Source of the DNA: Kaistella faecalis
GTDB lineage: Bacteria; Bacteroidota; Bacteroidia; Flavobacteriales; Weeksellaceae
Assembly: GCF_019195395.1 (NCBI RefSeq)
Contig: NZ_CP078067.1
Coordinates: 1,131,783 to 1,195,782, forward strand
Direction of reading: 5' to 3'
Length of the DNA stretch: 64,000 nucleotides
Part shown: piece by piece, positions 25,496-34,192 of the stretch
Layout: each line of letters begins with the position of its first letter
Numbering within the stretch: the first letter of the stretch is position 1
Translations under genes and position numbers: made by a program
Notes under the pieces: model-generated
Seen by the model: only the letters and a program-made list of their open reading frames with translations
Databases searched by the model: none
Told to the model about the DNA's origin: nothing

Positions 25496-25680
25496 GGAAT
25501 CAGGGTGATCGGGAAACACTGCTCCCGCGTGAGGGATAGAAGAGGCATCCTTTTTCTGTAGCGGCGGCTCCGCCGGCGCTACAGAAAAAGATAAAGCGGA
25601 GAGCCCGGCCTGAAGGAGGAAATGATGCCGCGCCTGCCTCCAGCGGGCGCGGCAAAATGACCGACGGAAGGACACGCCCC
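25496..25680 (+). ncRNA. GC-rich structured RNA-like element (Flavo-1-like?)
   Basis: A GC-rich island in AT-rich surroundings. It has a 19-bp hairpin with one mismatch (left arm from about 25551, CTTTTTCTGTAGCG, right arm CGCTACAGAAAAAG, capped by TCC) and a second 11-bp hairpin near 25627-25653 (GCCGCGCCTGC with GCGGGCGCGGC). Upstream is GAGGGATAGAAGAGGCATCC and near the end GGACACGCCC, both of which I recall from repeated intergenic elements in many flavobacterial genomes, possibly the Flavo-1 RNA motif. It ends a few bases before the ssrA promoter. Of the 358-nt gap before ssrA, the part at 25377-25495 shows nothing else. Family name uncertain. Confidence 0.5.
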
Positions 25681-25735: not shown

Positions 25736-26132
25736 GGGGTTGACTGGTTTCGACAGCAAGATCAATGGGTAAGTAAGCATGCAGAGAACCGTAGCGCGAT
25801 CTCTTTAATCCCTTGCTACACAATTTTAACTGGCGACCAAGAGTTTGCTCTTGCAGCTTAATCCGAATTACAGTAGGATTCAGCGCTCTCCCGAAGCACA
25901 GTAAGGAGGTAAGATATCCCGCAGAAGTTCTGTTTCGCGACGTCTGATTCCGGGGTATAGCAATGCGGAAATAAGGTTTTGGATACTTCGGCCAAAGCTC
26001 GAAAACTTCAGAAGATAAGCAGTAAATTGGGTGTCTGTGCTCTGTTTACTGTCGAAAATCAAACGCAGAATAAGCATGTAGAAGTCTTATGTGTTGCTTG
26101 TTTGGACGAGGGTTCGAATCCCTCCAACTCCA
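25736..26132 (+). ncRNA. ssrA: Transfer-messenger RNA (tmRNA)
   Basis: tmRNA rescues stalled ribosomes by acting as tRNA-Ala and then mRNA. The 5' end GGGGTTG (25736-25742) pairs with CAACTCC (26125-26131), with discriminator A at 26132; CCA is not encoded. The T-arm GGTTCGAATCC lies at 26111-26121. The tag reading frame at 25832-25861 encodes GDQEFALAA then TAA, with the usual ALAA degradation end. The gene is whole, but its last 14 bases are also the left attachment site of the 8-kb element that follows, so the 3' flank is foreign DNA. Confidence 0.96.
25832..25861 (+). other. tmRNA proteolysis-tag reading frame
   Basis: The resume codon GGC at 25832 begins GDQEFALAA followed by TAA (25859-25861). 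The glycine start and ALAA end match tags of other Bacteroidota. The alanine carried by the tmRNA precedes it in the final tag. Confidence 0.85.
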
Positions 26133-26133
26133 C
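26119..26133 (+). repeat. Left attachment site (attL core)
   Basis: TCCCTCCAACTCCAC, identical to 34178-34192. It covers the 3' strand of the tmRNA T-stem and acceptor stem plus one base, so integration keeps ssrA intact. Confidence 0.88.
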
Positions 26134-26145
26134 TAATTAAAACAT

Positions 26146-26180
26146 AACCGTCTGATTTTCAAGGCGGTTTTTGTTTTGTT
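26146..26180 (+). terminator. Element-borne terminator for ssrA
   Basis: AACCGTC (26146-26152) pairs with GGCGGTT (26163-26169, one G-U pair), followed by a T-rich tail. It lies 13 nt past the end of tmRNA, inside the mobile element, and replaces the native terminator now at 34201-34234. Confidence 0.7.
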
Positions 26181-26200
26181 AGTCCGCGGTTAGTCCGCAA
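26179..26200 (+). repeat. Left arm repeats (2 x 11 bp)
   Basis: Two perfect-phase copies, TTAGTCCGCGG (26179-26189) and TTAGTCCGCAA (26190-26200). The same 11-bp unit occurs three times at the other end of the element in the same direction. They are likely binding sites for the arm-binding domain of the integrase. Confidence 0.75.
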
Positions 26201-26250
26201 CTTCAAATTTTAACATTTTCTACCCTTTTATGGTTTCCGAAAACTCCACA

Positions 26251-26276
26251 AAAAAAACCGGGAACAGATCCCAGTT
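26251..26276 (-). terminator. Terminator at the left end of the element operon
   Basis: On the minus strand AACTGGGA pairs with TCCCGGTT (26256-26263 with 26269-26276, one G-U pair), followed by a T tract (A run 26251-26257). It overlaps the stop codon of the last element gene and ends leftward transcription before ssrA. Between it and the arm repeats (26201-26250) nothing else is seen. Confidence 0.65.
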
Positions 26277-26874
26277 AATTTTTATAACTCTTAAATAATT
26301 TCAGATACTCATCTGCATTAAAATTGTTTTCCGTTTCCTGTATTTTCTTACTGATACGGGCAAAACGTTTTGTCATCTTACCGTTATAATACCGTTTGAA
26401 ATATTTACTGTATAATTCGGCATGAAGTTTATCGTTAAAATCCTTTGCGAAAATCCTGTTCCATTCCCTCCATTTTTTAGATTCTATTTGAATTTGATAC
26501 ATTAACCCCGGTAAGGCGGAACGGTGTTTAAAATACCCCTTTATTAGGTGCAATTTCCTACAGACTTTACCGGTATAAGGGCAAACAAAAAACCAAATTA
26601 AACCCGTTCCCAAGTTCGACTGGCGCGTTATCAGTTGAATATCATATCTTATCTTTTCGGTATTATTGAAAGTGTAATCTACAGTTAAAACCCCGGTGGT
26701 TTCACCTATTACTGTTCTAATACTGATACTATTTTTGGTTCCGTTTCCTGAAGTCCAAATGATTGCCCCCAGTTTACTTTGGTTTGGTATGATATATTCG
26801 TGTTTTGATAAAAACGAAATGTCAATACATCGTAAATCGTTTACCGTTGTCGGATAGTTTGCCCAGCGTCCCAT
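26275..26874 (-). CDS. Mobile-element protein with degenerate zinc-ribbon-like domain
   Basis: A 199-residue cytoplasmic protein. Its layout (opening TVNDLRCIDISFL, then W-F-x-CP at about 94-99, C105, GYF-x-HR at 113-118, MYQIQ at 125-129) parallels a widespread family of mobile-element proteins that carry a zinc ribbon of the type CPxCGRR and CRxC. Here most of the metal-binding Cys are gone: only C98 and C105 remain, with TGK and HRSAL in place of the other positions. The C-terminal third is basic and helical. Function is unknown. It is the last gene of the element, where satellites and islands often place accessory cargo. Confidence 0.65.
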   Translation of the reverse strand: MGRWANYPTTVNDLRCIDISFLSKHEYIIPNQSKLGAIIWTSGNGTKNSISIRTVIGETTGVLTVDYTFNNTEKIRYDIQLITRQSNLGTGLIWFFVCPYTGKVCRKLHLIKGYFKHRSALPGLMYQIQIESKKWREWNRIFAKDFNDKLHAELYSKYFKRYYNGKMTKRFARISKKIQETENNFNADEYLKLFKSYKN

Positions 26875-27003
26875 ATTTTTAAAATCTCAGGTTTTATAAG
26901 GTTCAAATACTTAACATTTCCTAACATGTTCCCAGTTCTATAGATTAGAAAGATGAGGTTTGTTAGGTTGCCCCCTCGCGCGCGCGTAGTTGTTAAAAAA
27001 ACT

Positions 27004-28878
27004 CTACTTAACAATTGTAACCTTTGTAACCGCTCCATGGTCTAAAGTTGGTTCATAGGTAAAATCTGTTCCCTCTGTTAAATACTCTGTGGCATATTCT
27101 ATGAATGTATTTTTATTAATATTCCTAACGGTATCAAAACTGTATTTAGCAACCTGAAACACCCCCGGAATGTTGTTTATTTGAATCTTTGACAAATAGG
27201 GGTAATAACCGTATAAATCCCCCTCAAAATAGTACATCGGGCGTGGCGCTATTCTTAAAATATCCTCTACCATAATACGCAATAAGGGTTTACCAGTTAC
27301 CTCATCATGTCGGCTCCACAATTGGGTAGGCTCTCCATTCTCTTTATACAGTGTGCCGTAATAAATATCAGAGATTGAATCCCCATTGTTTACTACTTTA
27401 TCGTTTTTAGTAACTGAAGAAATACGGGTCATTCTTTGGGCGGTGTGGAACTCACCTTTTAAATTTCCGTTTGCATTAGGAACTATATCAAATGAATCTA
27501 TATAAACAGTCGGTGAACTTGTAAAATTTCCTGCACCTCCATAAATTTTTAGAATAACAAGTAAGTTAGAATCCTCTAAAATTGGTGGTAATGATATATT
27601 TATTTGAATATTTTCATTGATATTTACAGAATCAACAACTACAAACCCATAAAATCCATCATCTGGTGCTGTTTTTGACTTCCAAATACCTTCATTAGAT
27701 TTAAAAAAGTAATTGTCAGTTTCTAATCTTACATGAGCTGTTAGTGGCTTATCACCGCTTCTTATGTTTATTAAAACATTTAATAAGTCATTCAGTTTAA
27801 CAGTTGGCGACGGATTTACTCTTATAATTTCTTGAATACCTGTAAATAATGAATTTATTATTAATCCTGATCCACTTGGATTATTTATAACTGCACCTTC
27901 TGGACTTGATATTGAAAATCCATCAGCACTTAATACTCCGTTAGTTTTTATATCTGGATTTCCGATTAAACTTCTAACAGTTCCGTACTTATAGTGAACT
28001 CTAAATGCCTGATTACTCGGGATAATTGATTTTTTTTGATTTGCGTTTACATGGAAAATAGGGTACTGATCAATATGAGAGCCTATATTTAATTCAGTAT
28101 TCCAAACTATATCCCCGGTTTTTTCCCCGTTTTCATATCTGTAGAAAGTCATTTCCCCTTTTACATCAATAGTACGGTATATCCACCATTCCCCGTGCAT
28201 CTGTATTATAGTAGCGTTATAAAGTTCTAATATTGATTTTAACACCTCATCGCAGTCCATTAAATCCCGTCTGTTGTCATCCTGATAGAATCGATCGGCA
28301 TTCATTTTAACCGACTTTAAAACGGTGTCTATTCCCGTAAATCCCTCATACGTTGGAAGTGAATTACTGATATTAATAGGCAATTCGTATCCAATACGTT
28401 TTAGGCATTGTCTGAGGGCTGTAAATTGCGTTATTTTCCCTTTGTATTTATTCCCCTCATCAGTTACAAATGATAGGTTTTTTAAGATACTTAAACCATC
28501 CATTGCATTTAAAGATATTTCCCATCTATTGCTCACGAAATCCTCCCAAATGCCATCCGGTAACAAATACCCCAGGAAGATTATTTGGTTATTTCGGTAA
28601 AAATTAACGGTAAACTGTCTTTCATTCTCTGAATACAAATCAGTAAGGGTTAGATCCTCATTTGCCTCTAAGGAAATATCTAATGTTGAGGGTACAACCG
28701 GTTGAAATATGTCTTTCCTTTCGGAATATGCATGCCGTGCCTTTCCCTGAATCTCAATAATTTCTCCGGTGTAATCTTTATCCCAAATATCCAAACGAAT
28801 TGAATCCCCGTCAATACTTTTGTATTCTGCTCTGTACTTTGGGTTTGCAGGCGCTGAGGTTGTAATTAAATTTATCAT
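27004..28878 (-). CDS. Phage tail/baseplate-like protein
   Basis: A 624-residue, beta-rich protein without signal peptide. The N-terminal third follows the pattern seen in tail proteins encoded beside the tape measure in Bacteroidota prophages: strand with DIWDKDYTGEIIEI (about 31-44), IFQPVVPSTLDISLEA (about 57-72), FYRNNQIIFLGYLLPDGIW (about 92-110) and a helix AMDGLSILKNLSF (about 124-136). By analogy this is a baseplate-hub or distal-tail protein that contacts the fibre. No tape measure, sheath, tube, capsid or fibre gene accompanies it. The family call rests on remembered sequence pattern, not on a search. The 129 nt downstream include a CGCGCGCG tract near 26980. Confidence 0.6.
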   Translation of the reverse strand: MINLITTSAPANPKYRAEYKSIDGDSIRLDIWDKDYTGEIIEIQGKARHAYSERKDIFQPVVPSTLDISLEANEDLTLTDLYSENERQFTVNFYRNNQIIFLGYLLPDGIWEDFVSNRWEISLNAMDGLSILKNLSFVTDEGNKYKGKITQFTALRQCLKRIGYELPINISNSLPTYEGFTGIDTVLKSVKMNADRFYQDDNRRDLMDCDEVLKSILELYNATIIQMHGEWWIYRTIDVKGEMTFYRYENGEKTGDIVWNTELNIGSHIDQYPIFHVNANQKKSIIPSNQAFRVHYKYGTVRSLIGNPDIKTNGVLSADGFSISSPEGAVINNPSGSGLIINSLFTGIQEIIRVNPSPTVKLNDLLNVLINIRSGDKPLTAHVRLETDNYFFKSNEGIWKSKTAPDDGFYGFVVVDSVNINENIQINISLPPILEDSNLLVILKIYGGAGNFTSSPTVYIDSFDIVPNANGNLKGEFHTAQRMTRISSVTKNDKVVNNGDSISDIYYGTLYKENGEPTQLWSRHDEVTGKPLLRIMVEDILRIAPRPMYYFEGDLYGYYPYLSKIQINNIPGVFQVAKYSFDTVRNINKNTFIEYATEYLTEGTDFTYEPTLDHGAVTKVTIVK

Positions 28879-28935
28879 GTTTTAGATTTTATATTATTTT
28901 ATCAATTTCAAGTTTTTTCAAGTTCTAAAGTTTCC

Positions 28936-28949
28936 CGGCTCCCGAAATA
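28936..28949 (+). repeat. 14-bp repeat, copy 1
   Basis: CGGCTCCCGAAATA, identical to 30827-30840 inside the 133-residue ORF of the same element. This copy lies between the small protein and the tail-like gene. Function unknown; it may be chance or a binding site. Confidence 0.5.
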
Positions 28950-28979
28950 ATAACCTAAATTATTAGGGAACATTACTTT

Positions 28980-29216
28980 TTAATCTTTGCCCCTGTAAAG
29001 TGTTGTTATATCAAATAACGGCTGTTCTACTGTCAGACTTTCTTTGCTCTCAATACTTTTTAAGGTAGGTAAAACAAAACGGGAAATTTCCAGTAAACAT
29101 TTTATGCGGTCTTTGGGTTCCAGTTCCTGCAAATCCTTTGTTAATTGCTCTAAATTATCAGTTAAGATACTTTGTAACCTTTCCCGGATTACGTCGGTTT
29201 TTTCGTTTTGTATCAT
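28980..29216 (-). CDS. Small hypothetical element protein
   Basis: A 78-residue acidic helical protein with a Leu-rich middle (LQELEPKDRIKCLLEISRF, then VLPTLKSIE). Similar short proteins with a PKDR...VLP core occur in Bacteroidota phages and plasmids, sometimes next to packaging genes, but I cannot assign a function. It lies 11 nt after rep and is probably in its transcript. The 101 nt that follow before the tail-like gene are AT-rich and hold a copy of the repeat CGGCTCCCGAAATA (28936-28949). Confidence 0.55.
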   Translation of the reverse strand: MIQNEKTDVIRERLQSILTDNLEQLTKDLQELEPKDRIKCLLEISRFVLPTLKSIESKESLTVEQPLFDITTLYRGKD

Positions 29217-29227
29217 CTTATTTCTAT

Positions 29228-30487
29228 TTAACAGAAACTAAATTGCAGTTGGTGTTTTGGGTAATTTCTTTGCTCAAATCTTTTCCGGTTATGTATTTCA
29301 TTAAAAAACTCATTCCGTACATTATGCGCTATGTAATAAAACTGATCGGGTAAATCTAAACTCCATTTTTTCGGGGTCAAATATTTTTCCTTTAGTCTTT
29401 GGTATGTTTCAGGCTCCGTTTCACTGTAGTATTTCAGACCCGCGAAACACAAATATTTAGAGTTAGGTTTTTGCATCGAAATATTAAGACTTGTTACTTC
29501 ACAAACTCGTAAGGTTTCCCGGTGGGTGGGTGTGTTAGATTCCATCTTTACTATAGGTGGAAACTGCACAAGGGTTTTGGTGGAAATTGGGGCGGTTTGC
29601 GGTTTGGTGTGTTCCGGTGTTACCGTTGCTGAAATCGTGGAAACTGCACAAAGTTTTAACTGATCTAATTTATCCGAAATCCTTTTATAGATGAGGTTCT
29701 GCAGTCCTTTTTCACCTAATATTTTGTAGTATTTCTTTTTAGTATTTACAAAGGTGTTCCGGTGGTTATTTTCCAGTATTTCTAACCAAAAATCGGTATT
29801 ACAAAACCGTTTCCCTTTTTTGCTCCGTTTATCAAAGATTAAAACGTTATTCCATTCTGATATTAATACTTTTGATAATAGGCTGTAGGTGGTCGGTTTT
29901 AGCAAATCTGAAAGGGTTTTAATACCTTTTGATAACAAGTATTTACTTTGTCGGGTTTTGCCCTCAAATCTCATTAAATTAGGCTGTGCATAGTCAGGAA
30001 AATTTAAAGTTTTGTTATATGCCTTTACTCCGAAATAAGAAGTTCCTGCAAAATAACATTCTGCCAAATCCGGATATTTTATAAATTGGTTTTTATTGTG
30101 AAACCTTAACCATTTCACCACCTCTGAAACATTGCCTGGCGTCTCAAAATTAACTCCAAATTCGAGGTTATTAATATAACAGTCATCAGGAACCAAACCG
30201 AACCGGGTAATAAGGTTTTCGAGCGTTCTAATGCAGTCAGAAACTGTAAAATCGTTAGCATTATGCAAACCGTTATTAAAAAGTTTGTGCAAACTCCCGG
30301 AAACCTCCAATTTATTTGGGTGTTTAGACAAAATCAGATTTACAAACTGTCTATTATCTACCGTTCTAATTTCACCAGTATTTTTGTTTACAAAACTATG
30401 TTCACTCTTATAAACCAAATCTGAATGGCTCCAAATTCTGTTAATCAGATCAGTATTTTTTATTTCAAATTTGATATAATCTAACAT
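29228..30487 (-). CDS. Probable replication initiation protein (phage/plasmid Rep-like)
   Basis: A 419-residue protein. The layout MLDYIKFEI at the start, KLEVSGSLHKLFN (about 56-68), NNLEFGVNFETP (about 105-116), YFGVKAYNKT (about 151-160) and MRFEGKTRQSKYLL (about 172-185) matches a group of Bacteroidota phage/plasmid replication proteins related to the gene II/X/CRI type of filamentous phages, which nick DNA to start rolling-circle replication. I see no clear HxH metal motif, so the catalytic mechanism is unproven. The C-terminal third is low-complexity and divergent. The leader upstream contains a plus-strand promoter and terminator, a setting expected for copy control. Confidence 0.6.
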   Translation of the reverse strand: MLDYIKFEIKNTDLINRIWSHSDLVYKSEHSFVNKNTGEIRTVDNRQFVNLILSKHPNKLEVSGSLHKLFNNGLHNANDFTVSDCIRTLENLITRFGLVPDDCYINNLEFGVNFETPGNVSEVVKWLRFHNKNQFIKYPDLAECYFAGTSYFGVKAYNKTLNFPDYAQPNLMRFEGKTRQSKYLLSKGIKTLSDLLKPTTYSLLSKVLISEWNNVLIFDKRSKKGKRFCNTDFWLEILENNHRNTFVNTKKKYYKILGEKGLQNLIYKRISDKLDQLKLCAVSTISATVTPEHTKPQTAPISTKTLVQFPPIVKMESNTPTHRETLRVCEVTSLNISMQKPNSKYLCFAGLKYYSETEPETYQRLKEKYLTPKKWSLDLPDQFYYIAHNVRNEFFNEIHNRKRFEQRNYPKHQLQFSFC

Positions 30488-30503
30488 TGTTTATCTATCT
30501 TTG
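30470..30503 (+). promoter_or_regulatory. Plus-strand promoter in the rep leader
   Basis: TTTG (30470-30473), 22 nt, TATCTTTG (30496-30503) is a full consensus Bacteroidota promoter reading away from and against rep. Predicted start near 30509. Confidence 0.55.
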
Positions 30504-30508
30504 TTACA

Positions 30509-30577
30509 GCAATGGTTTTACCAGTTGTTAGGATTTGAACACCGTTAAGGGAATGCAGTTTTGCAATCCCTTTTTTT
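30509..30577 (+). ncRNA. Candidate antisense RNA against the rep leader
   Basis: From the plus-strand promoter at 30470-30503 a transcript of about 70 nt would end at the hairpin at 30547-30572 with its T tract at 30571-30577. It has no plausible reading frame. It is fully complementary to the 5' leader of the rep transcript if rep is transcribed from upstream. In rolling-circle plasmids such counter-transcribed RNAs limit Rep synthesis. Prediction only. Confidence 0.4.
30547..30577 (+). terminator. Plus-strand terminator in the rep leader
   Basis: AAGGGAATGCA (30547-30557) pairs with TGCAATCCCTT (30562-30572) with one A-A mismatch and a 4-nt loop, followed by T to 30577. Its T tail is on the plus strand although all element genes are on the minus strand. 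An alternative reading is a double-strand-origin hairpin. Confidence 0.6.
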
Positions 30578-30581
30578 GGCT

Positions 30582-30983
30582 CTAAAAATTATTAATGAGC
30601 TGTTTAATCAGTCGGTTTCTATAGTCAGGGTTTCCCTTTGGGTAGAATTGTTTGCACACCCTTAAAACCACCGTTTCCCAGTCATCGGGTACAAATACCA
30701 CTATAAGAGATTTAACACCGTTTACGGGCAAATCTGAATAGTAAAAATTAGGGGTTCCCGTTGGTCTTAACCCGGCTAAGGTGCATTTAGTCCAGTTGGT
30801 AGCGTTCCGAATTCTTAAAAGGTTTTCGGCTCCCGAAATAGAATTAAAACCGTTGTTCTTTTCGGTACGGATCAGATCAGGCAAAAGTCCGGGAATGTCT
30901 GCAGAATTTAAAAGGTATTGCCGGAAAGTCTTTTTTACGGTTTCTATTCCGTAAACCAGTTTATAATTGTCAGGGTAGAACAT
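30582..30983 (-). CDS. Hypothetical element protein
   Basis: A 133-residue protein, basic at its C-terminus (FYPKGNPDYRNRLIKQLI), with a probable central hydrophobic strand (KSLIVVFVPDDW). No known motif is recognised. It lies 11 nt after the HTH gene and so is probably co-transcribed with it. A 14-bp stretch of its coding sequence (30827-30840) is repeated at 28936-28949. Confidence 0.5.
   Translation of the reverse strand: MFYPDNYKLVYGIETVKKTFRQYLLNSADIPGLLPDLIRTEKNNGFNSISGAENLLRIRNATNWTKCTLAGLRPTGTPNFYYSDLPVNGVKSLIVVFVPDDWETVVLRVCKQFYPKGNPDYRNRLIKQLINNF
30827..30840 (+). repeat. 14-bp repeat, copy 2
   Basis: CGGCTCCCGAAATA within the 133-residue ORF, identical to 28936-28949. Confidence 0.5.
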
Positions 30984-30994
30984 CGCAATAAATA

Positions 30995-31273
30995 TTAATC
31001 GTTAATAATCATTGCGTTCTCTATCTCATCTAAACGGTAATAAACCCGGGAACCCAGTTTATAACTTTTGATAATATTCCGTTTCCGGTATTCGTGAATT
31101 GTTGGTTTGGTAATGCTGAACCTTTCGCAAATTTGCTCTGCAGTATAGTATCGGTTCGGCTCATTGTCTTTGAAAGACTTTTCGAGATCAGTTAATAAGG
31201 CAGTTTTAACTTTACTTACTAATTCGTTTAGAAAATTATCGGGCGTAATGCCGACGAAATTAATTGTTTCCAT
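30995..31273 (-). CDS. Helix-turn-helix protein, excisionase-like
   Basis: A 92-residue protein with a C-terminal MerR/excisionase-type HTH at about 42-85 (YYTAEQICERFSITKPTIHE, then GSRVYYRLDEIE). In Bacteroidota such proteins act as excisionases or small regulators of integrative elements. A perfect 10-bp inverted repeat abuts its start codon, which suggests self-control. It lies between the integrase-side genes and rep, a place typical of a control gene for excision and replication. Confidence 0.85.
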   Translation of the reverse strand: METINFVGITPDNFLNELVSKVKTALLTDLEKSFKDNEPNRYYTAEQICERFSITKPTIHEYRKRNIIKSYKLGSRVYYRLDEIENAMIIND

Positions 31274-31303
31274 TTTGTAGCGTGTTTAATTTAACGCTAC
31301 AAA
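31274..31303 (-). promoter_or_regulatory. Inverted repeat at the HTH gene start
   Basis: TTTGTAGCGT (31274-31283) and ACGCTACAAA (31294-31303), perfect arms with a 10-nt spacer, end exactly at the HTH start codon (31271-31273). A near-consensus minus-strand -7 box (AATCTTTG) overlaps the upstream arm. It may be an operator for the HTH protein or an mRNA hairpin over the ribosome site. Confidence 0.6.
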
Positions 31304-31368
31304 GATTTTCTAAGTAATTGTTAAGTAATACTTATTTTAAATCGACTGAAATAAAAAAGACAAACTGT

Positions 31369-32127
31369 TTAGTCTGTCTTATCCTTTATTCTAAAAGTGT
31401 TATAAATTTGGGTTGCCTTTTTTACTGTGTTTTCACTGAAATAAGGACTGTTTTTGTTACCATGGTCGGGTCGTATCAAATAATTACAATACCCCGTTAA
31501 AGTGCCTTTTTGGTTATCTATTCCCGTAATTGATTGTATTATTTCGGTTAAATGGGTGGCATTATCTGAATATTCTAATTTTTTAATTAGTAAATCAATA
31601 ATTCCCAGTTTGTCCAGTACTATTAATTTCTCTTTCGGTTTAAGTTCGTTTTTACCGGAATAATCATTATCGGGAATTTCAGAGGTTTCCGGTGGCTGAC
31701 TTTGCAACTGACCGTTATAAAAAGGGGTTTTTAACCTGTCTTTTTGAACAATAACATCTGTTTTTATTTTTTCAATAATTGCTGTCAATTCCCTTAATTC
31801 CGGTTCTGTTTTAAAGTATAACGCTTCGTGCTGACTCAAAAATGATTTACCCTTTAGTATCTGCTCTGAAAGATTTTTAATTTCATATTCGTCAGTTTCT
31901 TTTTGTAATAATGCTAATGCTGTTTTAGTGTTGGAATCAATATTTAAAATATTGTCATAATTAAGGTCGTGTTTGTTTTTTAATTTCTTATAGTGATTAT
32001 GATATAAATCGTGCAAATCTGTTAAATACTTAAAGTATGTTATATTTTGACTTGCATAATTATTAAAAAAATCATTTTCATAATTTTCTAAAAAACTTTT
32101 AAGGTTATCATAAATAGGTATTTCCAT
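31369..32127 (-). CDS. Hypothetical element protein with C-terminal domain seen in Bacteroidota islands
   Basis: A 252-residue protein. The N-terminal half is coiled-coil-like and charged; the C-terminal domain (about 165-245: KLIVLDKLGIIDLLIKKL, then ITGI and NSPYFSENTV) follows a pattern common in proteins of Bacteroidota conjugative and integrative elements, often annotated only as hypothetical. No catalytic residues are evident. The start codon follows the conserved leader motif described at 32128-32144. It is 28 nt downstream of the S24-like gene. Confidence 0.55.
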   Translation of the reverse strand: MEIPIYDNLKSFLENYENDFFNNYASQNITYFKYLTDLHDLYHNHYKKLKNKHDLNYDNILNIDSNTKTALALLQKETDEYEIKNLSEQILKGKSFLSQHEALYFKTEPELRELTAIIEKIKTDVIVQKDRLKTPFYNGQLQSQPPETSEIPDNDYSGKNELKPKEKLIVLDKLGIIDLLIKKLEYSDNATHLTEIIQSITGIDNQKGTLTGYCNYLIRPDHGNKNSPYFSENTVKKATQIYNTFRIKDKTD

Positions 32128-32144
32128 AATTGCGAGGTTTGAAC
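32128..32144 (-). promoter_or_regulatory. Element leader motif, copy at the 252-residue ORF
   Basis: On the plus strand AATTGCGAGGTTTGAAC, directly next to the start codon. Close copies lie at 33977-33993 (integrase), 32630-32646 (S24-like gene) and 30523-30540 (rep leader); an inverted copy may lie at 26900-26917. Confidence 0.5.
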
Positions 32145-32155
32145 GGTTGCTGAAC

Positions 32156-32629
32156 TTAATTATTTTCTAAATATTTTATAATATTATGCCTGTAGGTTAT
32201 TCTGTCTTCTATCGTTTCCGGTTGCCATTCTATTACTTCATTGAAATTGTCCCAGTCTTCGTTTTCATTTCGATCTACAGAAAACAGTCTATCCCGAGAT
32301 AAAGAACTAAGGGAGTAAACCTCATCAAACATTGCTAAATTATAGGTATAATTAGGAAATAACTGTTTGTCTTTGGGATTACTTTCTAAAACAAAATTCC
32401 CGTCTTTGTCAATATCCCGAATAATCCCTAATTTATTTCCTGTGTCTTTAGTTAGGACAAAACAACCGGGTGTTTCAATTTTTGACTTTTTACAAAACAA
32501 AACATCATTAAAACAGATGCTCTCTGCCTTTCCACTGTGCATTTTGGAGGTTATTACTTTAAAAAAATTAACATTTTCCGGAAGTGTTGGGGTTTCAGCG
32601 TTTAAATCAATTGGTTTAGGCGTGTTCAT
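32156..32629 (-). CDS. Hypothetical protein, possibly S24/LexA-like without catalytic residues
   Basis: A 157-residue protein. Residues 38-107 (ICFNDVLFC, then GCFVLTKDTGNKLGIIRDI, GNFVLESNP and FPNYTYNLAMFDEVYSL) follow the strand order of the C-terminal S24 peptidase domain of LexA/CI-type repressors. The serine-methionine nucleophile motif and the Lys general base cannot be placed (Arg71 sits where Lys is expected), and there is no HTH. It could be a non-cleaving relative or a chance resemblance. It is the first gene after the integrase and starts at the conserved leader motif. Confidence 0.5.
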   Translation of the reverse strand: MNTPKPIDLNAETPTLPENVNFFKVITSKMHSGKAESICFNDVLFCKKSKIETPGCFVLTKDTGNKLGIIRDIDKDGNFVLESNPKDKQLFPNYTYNLAMFDEVYSLSSLSRDRLFSVDRNENEDWDNFNEVIEWQPETIEDRITYRHNIIKYLENN

Positions 32630-32646
32630 AACTGTAAGGGTTTAAA
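32630..32646 (-). promoter_or_regulatory. Element leader motif, copy at the S24-like gene
   Basis: On the plus strand AACTGTAAGGGTTTAAA, directly next to the start codon; the most divergent of the three start-codon copies. Confidence 0.4.
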
Positions 32647-32647
32647 A

Positions 32648-33976
32648 TTAATTTGCGGTTTTGGTTTGGGTTGAGGTTTCCGGCTCCGGTTGCTGTTGGG
32701 CTGTTTTCCAGTATTGCAGTATTTCTTTTGATTGGTCGTTAAAATCCTTACCAATATAATTAAGAAATTCCTTTTCCGTTTTGTGTCCGGTAACTGCCAT
32801 TATTATCGGGGTGGGAACTTTAATATAATTGTGGGTTGCAAAACTCCGCCTGCAGACGTGCGACGAAATTATTTCATGTAACGGATATTGCCCGTAAATA
32901 AATCTTTTGGTTTCGTCATCATATTTTTTGCCAAATTCCAAACGGTTAATTTCTGCCTTTTTTGCTATTGTCCGTAGGTGTTTATTAAATATGGTTTTTG
33001 CACTCTCAATATTATCAGAAAATACCGGGGGAAATTGTCCGTTTCTTTTATCAATTATCTTTTTAACCTCATCATGTAAAGGAATTAAAACCCCGTTTTT
33101 GGTCTTTTGTTGGTGCAGATTAATAAATATATTCCCGTCTATATTGGTAAACATTTTGGGCGTCATTGTAAGTAAGTCAGACGCTCTTTGCCCGGTATAA
33201 AAACCAATAATTAACCAGTCTTTGGCGGTCTGCAGTTGAGGTTCCAAAAAAGTAATTTTCTGTATTTCCTGCAGTTCCTTTTCCGTTATAAATATTGTGG
33301 GTGTTTCCGTGGTATATCCTTTAATCTCATCAATATTTTTATTGACTTCAATATTTAAGGTTTTGGCGTGGTTTATAATGGTTTTGGGATATTTGATATA
33401 ACGCCCTATTGTTCCTTTGGCTATTCCCTGCCCCTCTAAAAACATCTCAAATTTATTTGATACTGATACGTCCCAGTCAGATACTTTTAACCGTTGGTTT
33501 TGTGATTTTAGAAAATCGTTAATTTTATTAATTACAGTAATCTGTTTTTTGGTGGTGGCGTCGGTTATCCTTTTCCCTCTGTTTTTACGGAATGGTAAAA
33601 CGTCGGTAATGTAATAGGCTAAATAGTTATCTAAATAGTCCAGTTGCTCCAAACGACGTCCACCGGAATAATAGGCTGTTAAAATCTCATCTAACCAAAT
33701 ACCGTTAATTATTTCGGTTTCATTCCGTTTGCGGTACTGCTCCAAAATAAAAGATTCAATTTTGATGAGGTTTTTTTTAACGTCCTCAATATGTTTTAAG
33801 GTGGTTTTGTCTGCAGACTGAATGTTTTTAGGTTTCCCAGTCTTTGGGTTCCACTGATCCGGGTTTATGGTTTCCCGGGTTTTGCGTTTAACATCAATTA
33901 TACGAGCGTCTTTAAAACGTGCATAAATAGGGGCGTTGTCTTTTGCAGACTGCAGAATAAATTTAACGGTTGCCAT
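32648..33976 (-). CDS. int: Tyrosine recombinase / integrase
   Basis: A 442-residue tyrosine integrase that inserts and excises the element at ssrA. It has an N-terminal arm-binding domain (about 1-75, with IYARFKDARIIDVKRKTRETI), a SAM-like core-binding domain (about 95-215) and a catalytic domain with Arg264 (TGQRASD), His373 and Arg376 (HVCRRSF), His398 (TGHKT) and nucleophile Tyr407 (FLNYIG). The longer reading from 34000 begins with TTG; the ATG at 33976 starts the arm domain properly and follows the leader motif. It is the gene nearest the right attachment site. The arm domain matches the tandem 11-bp repeats. Confidence 0.95.
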   Translation of the reverse strand: MATVKFILQSAKDNAPIYARFKDARIIDVKRKTRETINPDQWNPKTGKPKNIQSADKTTLKHIEDVKKNLIKIESFILEQYRKRNETEIINGIWLDEILTAYYSGGRRLEQLDYLDNYLAYYITDVLPFRKNRGKRITDATTKKQITVINKINDFLKSQNQRLKVSDWDVSVSNKFEMFLEGQGIAKGTIGRYIKYPKTIINHAKTLNIEVNKNIDEIKGYTTETPTIFITEKELQEIQKITFLEPQLQTAKDWLIIGFYTGQRASDLLTMTPKMFTNIDGNIFINLHQQKTKNGVLIPLHDEVKKIIDKRNGQFPPVFSDNIESAKTIFNKHLRTIAKKAEINRLEFGKKYDDETKRFIYGQYPLHEIISSHVCRRSFATHNYIKVPTPIIMAVTGHKTEKEFLNYIGKDFNDQSKEILQYWKTAQQQPEPETSTQTKTAN

Positions 33977-33993
33977 AATTGTAAGATTTGAAC
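33977..33993 (-). promoter_or_regulatory. Element leader motif, copy at the integrase
   Basis: On the plus strand AATTGTAAGATTTGAAC, abutting the integrase start codon. Same motif as at 32128-32144 and 30523-30540. Confidence 0.5.
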
Positions 33994-34009
33994 ATAACAA
34001 ATATACAAC

Positions 34010-34042
34010 TTAGTCCGCAGTTAGTCCGCAATTAGTCCACAA
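34010..34042 (+). repeat. Right arm repeats (3 x 11 bp)
   Basis: TTAGTCCGCAG (34010-34020), TTAGTCCGCAA (34021-34031) and TTAGTCCACAA (34032-34042), exactly in phase. Same unit and same direction as the two copies at 26179-26200. Likely integrase arm sites. Confidence 0.8.
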
Positions 34043-34133
34043 ATATTTAATTTATTTTAATCCATTTAACACCTCATCAAATTGAAACAATTTATAAAAC
34101 CTCATCAATAGGGCATTTGTGTTATTTATAAGG

Positions 34134-34165
34134 AATAAAAAAAATCAGCCTGATTTAGACTGATT
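34134..34165 (-). terminator. Inward-facing terminator at the right end of the element
   Basis: On the minus strand AATCAGTC pairs with GGCTGATT (34158-34165 with 34143-34150, one G-U pair), followed by a T tract (A run to 34134). It would stop outside transcription, for instance from pckA, before the integrase gene. Confidence 0.6.
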
Positions 34166-34177
34166 AAAGGTTTATAG

Positions 34178-34192
34178 TCCCTCCAACTCCAC
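34178..34192 (+). repeat. Right attachment site (attR core)
   Basis: TCCCTCCAACTCCAC, the second copy of the ssrA 3' end, lacking the T-loop sequence before it. It marks the right boundary of the element. Confidence 0.88.

Follow-up and report, generated by a model that had tools for sequence, protein, structure and literature searches.

A site-specific element occupies the ssrA gene of Kaistella faecalis: repeats of the att core bound it, a doubled motif lies at either end, and an integrase, an HTH protein and a replication gene form its recurrent core. The element was located in a window of 64,000 nucleotides (the whole stretch of DNA analysed, contig NZ_CP078067.1, positions 1,131,783 to 1,195,782), and the 8.06-kb unit is almost certainly an integrative element. 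It carries a complete phage tail gene and may, as this suggests, borrow the particles of a bacterial virus or interfere with them. We put at even chances the reading that it is a PICI-like phage satellite of Weeksellaceae that captured this tail gene.

The element and its genes

Two copies of the last 15 bp of ssrA bound the ~8.06-kb element, which contains nine genes in the ORF list, all on the minus strand (Table 1). The att core, TCCCTCCAACTCCAC, was present in the window only as the two exact border copies, compared to a mean of 0.00 in 100 shuffles. The doubled motif flanking the core probably represents the arm sites of the integrase. The number of terminator-like hairpins in the region was 8, versus 6.1 expected in shuffles. 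A second match of the element in its own genome (L002) was discarded, as by eye it was a tRNA 3' end only.

Table 1. Features of the ssrA element and its borders (positions in the window)
Feature	Position	Strand	Evidence	Remark
ssrA (tmRNA) gene	25736..26133	+	ARAGORN; Rfam RF00023	gene intact next to the element, which uses its 3' end as attachment site
att core, p199 side, 15 bp	26119..26133	.	repeat search, shuffles	last bases of ssrA
Doubled 11-bp motif TTAGTCCGC(n2)TTAGTCCGCAA	26179..26200	+		60 bp from core, start to start; probable arm-type integrase site
Terminator-like hairpin after p199	26256..26276	-	hairpin scan	
p199, conserved gene at ssrA end	26275..26874	-		in 7/17 att-bounded elements
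624-aa phage tail protein (phrog_33803)	27004..28878	-	PHROG, phage-record and viral-contig comparison	cargo of the window copy
p78, small protein	28980..29216	-		conserved in L058 and L099
Rep, rolling-circle initiator fold	29228..30487	-	predicted structure	cluster in 16/17 att-bounded elements
p133, conserved gene between HTH and Rep	30582..30983	-		in 11/17 att-bounded elements
hth92, HTH_17 protein	30995..31273	-	Pfam, PHROG	probable excisionase/AlpA-like regulator; cluster in 17/17 att-bounded elements
p252, variable family between integrase and HTH gene	31369..32127	-	gene clustering	
p157, function unassigned	32156..32629	-		clusters with no gene of 40 compared loci
Tyrosine integrase, reads inward	32648..34000	-	PF00589, PF13102; PHROG integrase	450 aa from TTG, 442 aa from likely ATG 33976
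Doubled-motif sequence as three tandem units	34010..34042	+		integrase side, 168 bp from core, start to start
att core, integrase side, 15 bp	34178..34192	.	repeat search, shuffles	

A sequence-only reading had described the duplicated ssrA end, the single coding strand, a tyrosine integrase with all catalytic residues and an excisionase-type HTH protein, and all of these were found again. The catalytic set of the integrase was recognised by eye as R (GQRASD), K (QKTKNG), H..R (HVCRRSF), GH and Y (LNYIG), and its start is probably the ATG and not the TTG, because L099 shares the sequence from MATVKF onward. The hth92 protein matches HTH_17 at 2.5e-9 in Pfam and an excisionase PHROG at 4e-7; further matches, to terminase small-subunit PHROGs (0.04-0.06) and a connector family (0.055), are weak and of HTH type. 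Besides the latter and the matches of the tail protein, one of them to a virion-protein PHROG, none of the nine proteins gave a convincing capsid, portal, terminase or lysis match in Pfam, PHROGs and NCBIfam, in agreement, with this caveat, with the earlier statement that no such gene was recognised. The element has no recognised gene for packaging, capsid redirection or a large terminase, nor was there any sign of a packaging signal, a helper or particles.

No family match of p199 exceeded chance level and its predicted model matched no PDB fold at E 0.001; a CPxTGxxCR stretch might be a degenerate zinc ribbon. A search of 50,697 phage records at E 0.01 gave relatives of neither p199 nor p133. 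The small protein p78 was considered as a small terminase, which is kept as a lead only, neither p78 nor its L058 copy having a convincing match. A 94-aa relative in L071 matches phrog_8771 (unknown function) at 1.6e-7 and, weakly, 24 phage records (best 5e-6), including Salmonella phage 7-11, in which the matched gene begins ~1.5 kb before the large terminase gene. One weak relative was found in one viral-contig scan.

Related elements and the Rep protein

The comparison set was chosen, not random, and consisted of the 20 Rep places that ranked directly below that of the window, 4 tail loci and 16 p199 places. Seventeen att-bounded elements were obtained, namely the window copy, 15 of the 20 Rep loci and L082; the other Rep loci (L060, L061, L070, L073 and L075) had no clear att pair and were dropped. 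The att repeats of the 17 are those of ssrA or tRNA genes, lying just outside the tRNA gene in L064 and L076; the cores of L066 and L077 agree with the end of ssrA, but no tmRNA was called in these stretches by ARAGORN. In 13 of the 17, the core is flanked on both sides by a doubled motif, mostly of 11 bp; this count omits L058 (where a single end has the doubled copy), L071, L074 and L076 and includes L072, whose repetition score of 0.69 is below the threshold of the script (0.82-1.00 for the other twelve). The family comprises 5-10 kb integrative elements of Weeksellaceae with an integrase, an HTH protein, a rolling-circle-type Rep, variable cargo and sometimes p199. The integrase and HTH clusters are present in all 17, the HTH_17 match itself having been tested in the window copy alone, and the cargo of at least 3 of the 16 bounded relatives is of the anti-phage defence or methylase kind. 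The absence of this compact gene order from all other genomes had been set beforehand as an outcome that would count against the original reading; the order recurs in other genomes, so this outcome did not occur, and the description of a compact, intact unit is borne out.

The sequence-only reading had also proposed a probable Rep. Its predicted fold supports this, as a structure search matched it to rolling-circle initiators (RepDE/RepSTK1, nickase domain), but no convincing family match was found in Pfam, NCBIfam or PHROG. Y157, the candidate catalytic tyrosine within IKxYxK, and H67, E109 and N113 are invariant in 28 sequences, and PF02486 (Rep_trans) was matched by one of 28 family members, at 0.0067. 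A stop codon breaks the Rep reading frame in L067, and in L082, the one element of the 17 lacking the Rep cluster, Prim-Pol and AAA_25 genes occupy its place. Relatives of the Rep were absent from 72,556 plasmid records at E 0.01, and the phage records contained one weak, partial relative (28% over 46%) in an unannotated faecal phage record. The element probably copies itself much as a plasmid does, and very probably by rolling circle. MobT relaxases are related to Rep_trans replication proteins (PMC7563843); the absence of a relaxase gene, none having been recognised in the earlier reading, can therefore not be asserted.

The tail gene and the satellite model

The tail-like nature of the 624-residue protein, already noted from the letters, is confirmed by its match to tail PHROG phrog_33803 at 1.6e-113 and by its homologue gp088 of Cellulophaga phage phi10:1, annotated from virion proteomics. 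The protein also matches a 'head and packaging' virion-protein PHROG at 1e-12 and is 51% identical to a protein whose gene directly follows that of the tape measure in a phage contig. A conservation test, in which 71 of 86 sequences passed the length filter and 42 were left once near-identical ones were removed, identified it as a conserved, full-length structural orthologue. A truncated gene was ruled out, because short forms also occur in phages (L217, 624 aa; phi10:1, 636 aa; L081, 636 aa). The gene was probably captured from a phage of the 11b/phi10:1 type. It was found in the window copy alone among the 17 elements and is missing from near relatives, and may therefore have been acquired by chance; compared to L058, it is an insertion between p78 and p199. 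The lone tail gene noted earlier is present and full-length, and is the variable part of an otherwise conserved element. A 665-aa cargo protein of L076 appeared tail-like by eye and was not counted, as no PHROG, Pfam, phage or viral-contig match was found.

In L099, an IMG/VR contig, a sister element adjoins a phage, with a copy of the ssrA att core between them, an adjacency that is no more than suggestive. Scans of viral contigs with p199 and p133 each returned this same contig, and the scan with Rep returned none; no free, packaged copy of the element was found in the viral contigs, the sole element there standing beside a prophage. Neither capsid family PF05065 nor terminase family PF03237, the two searched, was found in the own genome, so the genome yielded no resident helper. 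Contigs 39 and 27 of metagenome 3300012252 are not claimed as one phage, since their ends do not overlap; a 14-mer shared near both phage ends was equalled by 3 of 2000 random pairs.

We lean slightly towards regarding the element as a phage satellite. Its HTH_17 protein probably aids excision, and Rep probably nicks the excised circle and copies it by rolling circle into multimers; a tailed phage might trigger the element and package its DNA. The variable end zone holds genes bearing on phages, of defence type in some relatives and the tail protein here. Made during helper growth, this protein could replace its helper counterpart and yield chimeric particles, as the PLE11 baseplate hub does, or could instead compete with the counterpart and spoil helper tails. 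Given a satellite, we think it fairly likely that the tail gene acts on the tails of the helper or of a rival. The full version, a new rolling-circle satellite family of Bacteroidota in which this copy places its own distal (hub-like) tail protein on helper particles and so changes the cells reached or excludes the helper part, is rather doubtful.

A real rival to the satellite, although an unlikely one, is an integrative mobilizable element in which the Rep-fold protein acts as a MobT-like relaxase and exploits a conjugative element, with the tail gene as inert cargo. The initiator fold, the single PF02486 match and the lack of a recognised phage packaging gene speak for it, as does the movement of streptococcal IMEs by Rep_trans relaxases reported in PMC7563843; it is opposed by the replication module of L082 in the place of Rep, by the lack of Rep relatives in the plasmid records and by the nine proteins, none of which matches a coupling-protein family in Pfam, PHROG or NCBIfam. 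We find it quite improbable that the element is a self-replicating integrative element that has no vehicle of its own and moves only rarely, through generalized transduction or transformation, with an end slot that gathers defence genes and a tail protein that is a decoy or blocker of incoming phages. Although some relatives do carry defence-type cargo, and satellites and prophages are known to use tail-assembly inhibition as a defence (PMC11364771), the tail gene is a conserved, full-length structural orthologue and is not recognised as an inhibitor.

The reading of the element as a prophage whose late genes were deleted except for one tail gene was also offered from the sequence alone, and is now very improbable, because the core is conserved without that gene: the same core with no tail gene is seen in L058 (Rep 90% identical), L068 and L099, and in all 16 bounded relatives. 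The inward integrase and the insertion of the tail gene between p78 and p199 relative to L058 also argue against such a remnant, despite the one intact virion gene and the use of ssrA by a full phage as well. Likewise, no element gene was found in the 80 viral tail loci kept (of 138), within the stretch compared, nor p199 or p133 in the phage records.

Comparison with known systems

The satellite reading is best compared to the gram-negative PICIs, including the helper-embedded ones (PMC10111431), which have the same order of an integration zone (integrase, HTH_17/AlpA), a replication zone and an end zone with captured late genes, on one strand with the integrase inward. Many use tRNA-type sites, as the present family does, and in HE-PICIs a doubled motif flanks the core on both sides, as here (PMC10111431). 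The element has the integrase and HTH_17 gene of a PICI integration zone, but differs in its Bacteroidota host, in a helper that is putative and in its replication zone, where a rolling-circle-type Rep (Prim-Pol and AAA_25 in L082 only) is found instead of the primase gene pri; no Phage_AlpA, Bro or primase match was found in Pfam, PHROG and NCBIfam. The cf-PICIs encode their own capsid and packaging genes, whereas the nine proteins gave no convincing capsid, portal or terminase match. The IMEs with Rep_trans (MobT-like) relaxases are likewise small integrative elements with a Rep_trans-type protein; those of PMC7563843 are from Streptococcus and S. aureus, 53 of 64 lying within the oriT of ICEs, and they differ from the present family, in which one relative (L082) has a replication module in the place of Rep.

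The PICMIs (PMC10803314) are alike in size and in the order integrase, small gene, AlpA-like gene, small gene and replication gene; they too have no capsid-remodelling gene, and rolling-circle-like replication was reported for them. They are however integrated at fis with int, alpA and prim, whereas our element uses ssrA and matches neither Phage_AlpA nor primase, and their authors found complete PICMIs in Vibrio genomes only (PMC10803314). Neither in Flavobacteriia nor in their phylum at large was a described phage satellite among the matches listed in a limited search of mainly open-access literature. If confirmed, the present elements would bring a large environmental group into the range of satellites, with the primase replaced by a rolling-circle Rep.

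The PLEs of Vibrio cholerae (PMC12987554) resemble the element in carrying a satellite-borne tail gene and are a precedent for satellite-encoded tail parts. They encode a tape measure and a tail chaperone, whereas one tail gene was recognised here, and no match to tmp, tac and other PLE genes was found in the nine proteins with Pfam, PHROGs and NCBIfam families. The swapping of tail parts into helper particles by PLEs was shown in 2026, PLE11 putting its own TMP and baseplate hub into chimeric tails (PMC12987554), and the lone tail gene described here now makes it possible to test whether single tail parts are also swapped into helper particles by satellites from outside Vibrio.

Organisation of the element and its site

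The compact ssrA element proposed by the sequence-only reading, with an integrase, an HTH protein, a Rep and a lone tail gene, was confirmed, as a pair of att repeats encloses nine genes on one strand; no further copy of the repeat occurs in the window. The G+C content is 34.2% inside the element versus 39.6% outside.

Features of the element and its surroundings (window positions)
Feature	Positions	Strand	Remarks
Flavo-1 RNA (RF01705)	25522-25614		just before ssrA; 43.9 bits, cut-off 42
tmRNA gene (ssrA)	25736-26133		
15-bp att repeat, first copy			last 15 bases of the tmRNA gene
Doubled motif, window copy	26179-26200		
Nine genes between the att copies		minus	in transcription order: integrase, p157, p252, hth92 (HTH_17), p133, Rep (predicted rolling-circle initiator fold), p78, 624-aa tail protein, p199; p-numbers denote unassigned proteins
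Motif, window copy, three tandem units	34010-34042		
15-bp att repeat, second copy	34178-34192		

An ssrA match was found in 36 of 36 genomes of the genus, above the family's cut-off in 35. The window gene just past the element codes for a PEP carboxykinase (534 aa, PF01293). This gene is the first of at least 250 aa after ssrA in 10 of the 32 further genomes with an ssrA call whose surroundings were read, and the site is thus seen empty in those 10. Comparison of the locus across genomes, suggested earlier as a check, showed the site to be taken by a related element in G114 and G122. Other integrase genes are present at several of the remaining loci, indicating that ssrA is a busy site. In one genome (G100:C7:653316-664711; loci L215 and L216), two partial ssrA matches below the cut-off are separated by ~11 kb; further along lies a different integrase, which matches one in locus L077 at 93%.

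A family of related elements

Rep was present in 57 of 296 sampled family genomes by single-sequence search and in 11 of 36 genomes of the genus by profile search, and a p133 scan of named genomes yielded 10 loci, six in Chryseobacterium and three in Epilithonimonas, both Weeksellaceae, and one in a Flavobacteriales MAG. Among 40 stretches compared around selected occurrences of Rep, the tail gene and p199, att repeats bound 17 elements of 5.1-10.2 kb, including that of the window, at or adjacent to ssrA (or the ssrA core sequence) or a tRNA gene for Cys, Gln, Arg or Phe. The integrase and HTH clusters are represented in all 17 and the Rep cluster in 16, counting the Rep of L067, which has an internal stop; p133 is found in 11, p199 in 7; the tail protein occurs once. 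The element belongs to a family and is probably not a wreck.

The same motif, doubled, lies on both sides of the core in 13 of the 17, with a period of 11 bases in eleven elements and 12 bases in two, at a distance from the core of 129-179 bp (median 163) towards the integrase and of 28-78 bp (median 63) at the opposite end. Its internal repetition score is at least 0.82 in 12 of the 13 (0.69 in L072); 29 of 5000 random 22-mers of these loci reached 0.8. A doubled motif flanking attP on both sides is described in helper-embedded PICIs; according to the authors, it could be bound by arm domains of the integrase, by AlpA or by some unknown protein (PMC10111431). The motif found here probably represents arm-type integrase sites, and hth92 is likely the excision factor.

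Some loci depart from this arrangement. In a relative within a tRNA-Gln gene (L082, 6438-8649), Prim-Pol and AAA_25 genes occupy the usual place of Rep. A branch of Rep-p133-HTH-p199 clusters (L083, L086, L087, L088, L091) is found close to large proteins that form a single cluster, the L083 member matching RHS_repeat and DUF6443; an integrase of the element's cluster is absent from these stretches, possibly reflecting another boundary or decayed copies. Two p199 relatives without Rep (L092, L097) are located among other genes ~1-2 kb from tRNA-Asn, and p199 may therefore also travel with another type of element. In two genomes p199 adjoins a Cas9 gene with RuvC_III, HNH_4 and bridge helix (L085, 7129-12654; L088, 369-5898), beside two further genes that appear Cas1- and Cas2-like by eye.

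The tail gene and other cargo

The 624-aa protein matches phrog_33803 (1.6e-113) and, over nearly its full length, proteins of Flavobacterium phage 11b (35%) and Cellulophaga phage phi10:1 (33%), the latter's gp088 being annotated as structural from virion proteomics. The closest of 138 viral-contig relatives (80 kept), also of 624 aa and 51% identical, is encoded on a 37.7-kb contig, where it immediately follows a 780-aa tape-measure gene (PF20155, 4e-15). On this basis, the 624-aa protein of the element probably belongs to the distal tail. It was found in 5 of 292 sampled family genomes, including the window; three of the other four copies sit within a shared stretch of twelve further gene families, and the fourth has five of these twelve around it, surroundings interpreted as the head and tail regions of prophages. 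Across the order, the four matches in 395 genomes comprise the window, one copy included in the family count and two weak ones.

Compared with L058, a near relative lacking it, the tail gene is a ~2-kb insertion that separates p78 from p199, and the sequence to either side of it is similar in the two elements. Of 71 columns that are conserved among a further 41 copies, the protein retains 68; those copies themselves range from 58 of 70 to all. The third-position G+C of the gene (0.29) is closer to that of the copy at locus L217 (0.256) than to that of 26 host ORFs (0.38, sd 0.04). The gene is intact, but may simply be recent.

PADLOC was run on ten selected proteins, of which nine are cargo from relatives. 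It recognised a type IIG restriction enzyme in L062, a methyltransferase in L071, AbiTii and, adjacent to it, a weak TIR match in L067, a retron VII-A2 reverse transcriptase and OloA in L070, and a type I methyltransferase in L073; p199 and two cargo proteins (L071, L073) were not matched. Among the chosen cargo proteins scanned, at least 3 of 16 bounded relatives thus have a defence- or methylase-type match, L070 and L073 not being att-bounded. In L070 (1132-5007), the reverse transcriptase, a DUF3800 gene and the OloA-like gene lie near a Rep of the element's family. L058, L059 and L063 have a secreted-looking protein in common, the L058 copy matching DUF4468. A 665-aa cargo protein directly after Rep in L076 (8882-10879) looks tail-protein-like by eye and gave no database match.

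Phage links and comparison with known systems

An IMG/VR contig (3300012252_000039) carries a sister element without the tail gene (integrase 90%, p199 86%), which ends at an ssrA-core copy in a stretch lacking the tmRNA gene; past this copy lies a phage that encodes RecT and a large terminase. On another contig of the same metagenome, which does not overlap the first, a phage integrase (PF00589) adjoins an intact tmRNA gene, and a 14-mer near the core is common to both phage ends. In this sample, a phage and an element therefore seem to share a site, which points to a possible helper without proving one.

The satellite reading proposed earlier, that of a flavobacterial element that would borrow the capsid of a helper phage, is plausible, with roughly equal chances of being right or wrong. 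Its alternative, a prophage whose late genes were deleted, would account for a lone tail gene and is unlikely, as the integrase/HTH core is constant among the bounded elements and the tail gene is confined to a single one. Conjugative mobilization is a real but less probable alternative, since some streptococcal IMEs use Rep_trans proteins as relaxases (PMC7563843; PMC11389934).

Gram-negative PICIs are described with an integration zone, to which HTH_17 is assigned, followed by Bro, replication and late zones, the last holding captured late genes, and with the integrase pointing inward (PMC10111431); in PICMIs the reported order is int, small gene, alpA, small gene, prim (PMC10803314). The element family follows the same plans but has a different replication protein. 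PLE11 is reported to encode a tape measure, a chaperone and a baseplate hub, with chimeric tails being built, and predicted tape-measure genes are reported in cf-PICIs too (PMC12987554). Given these shared plans and these tail genes, the lone tail gene in a PICI-like Bacteroidota element is a variant of a known theme.
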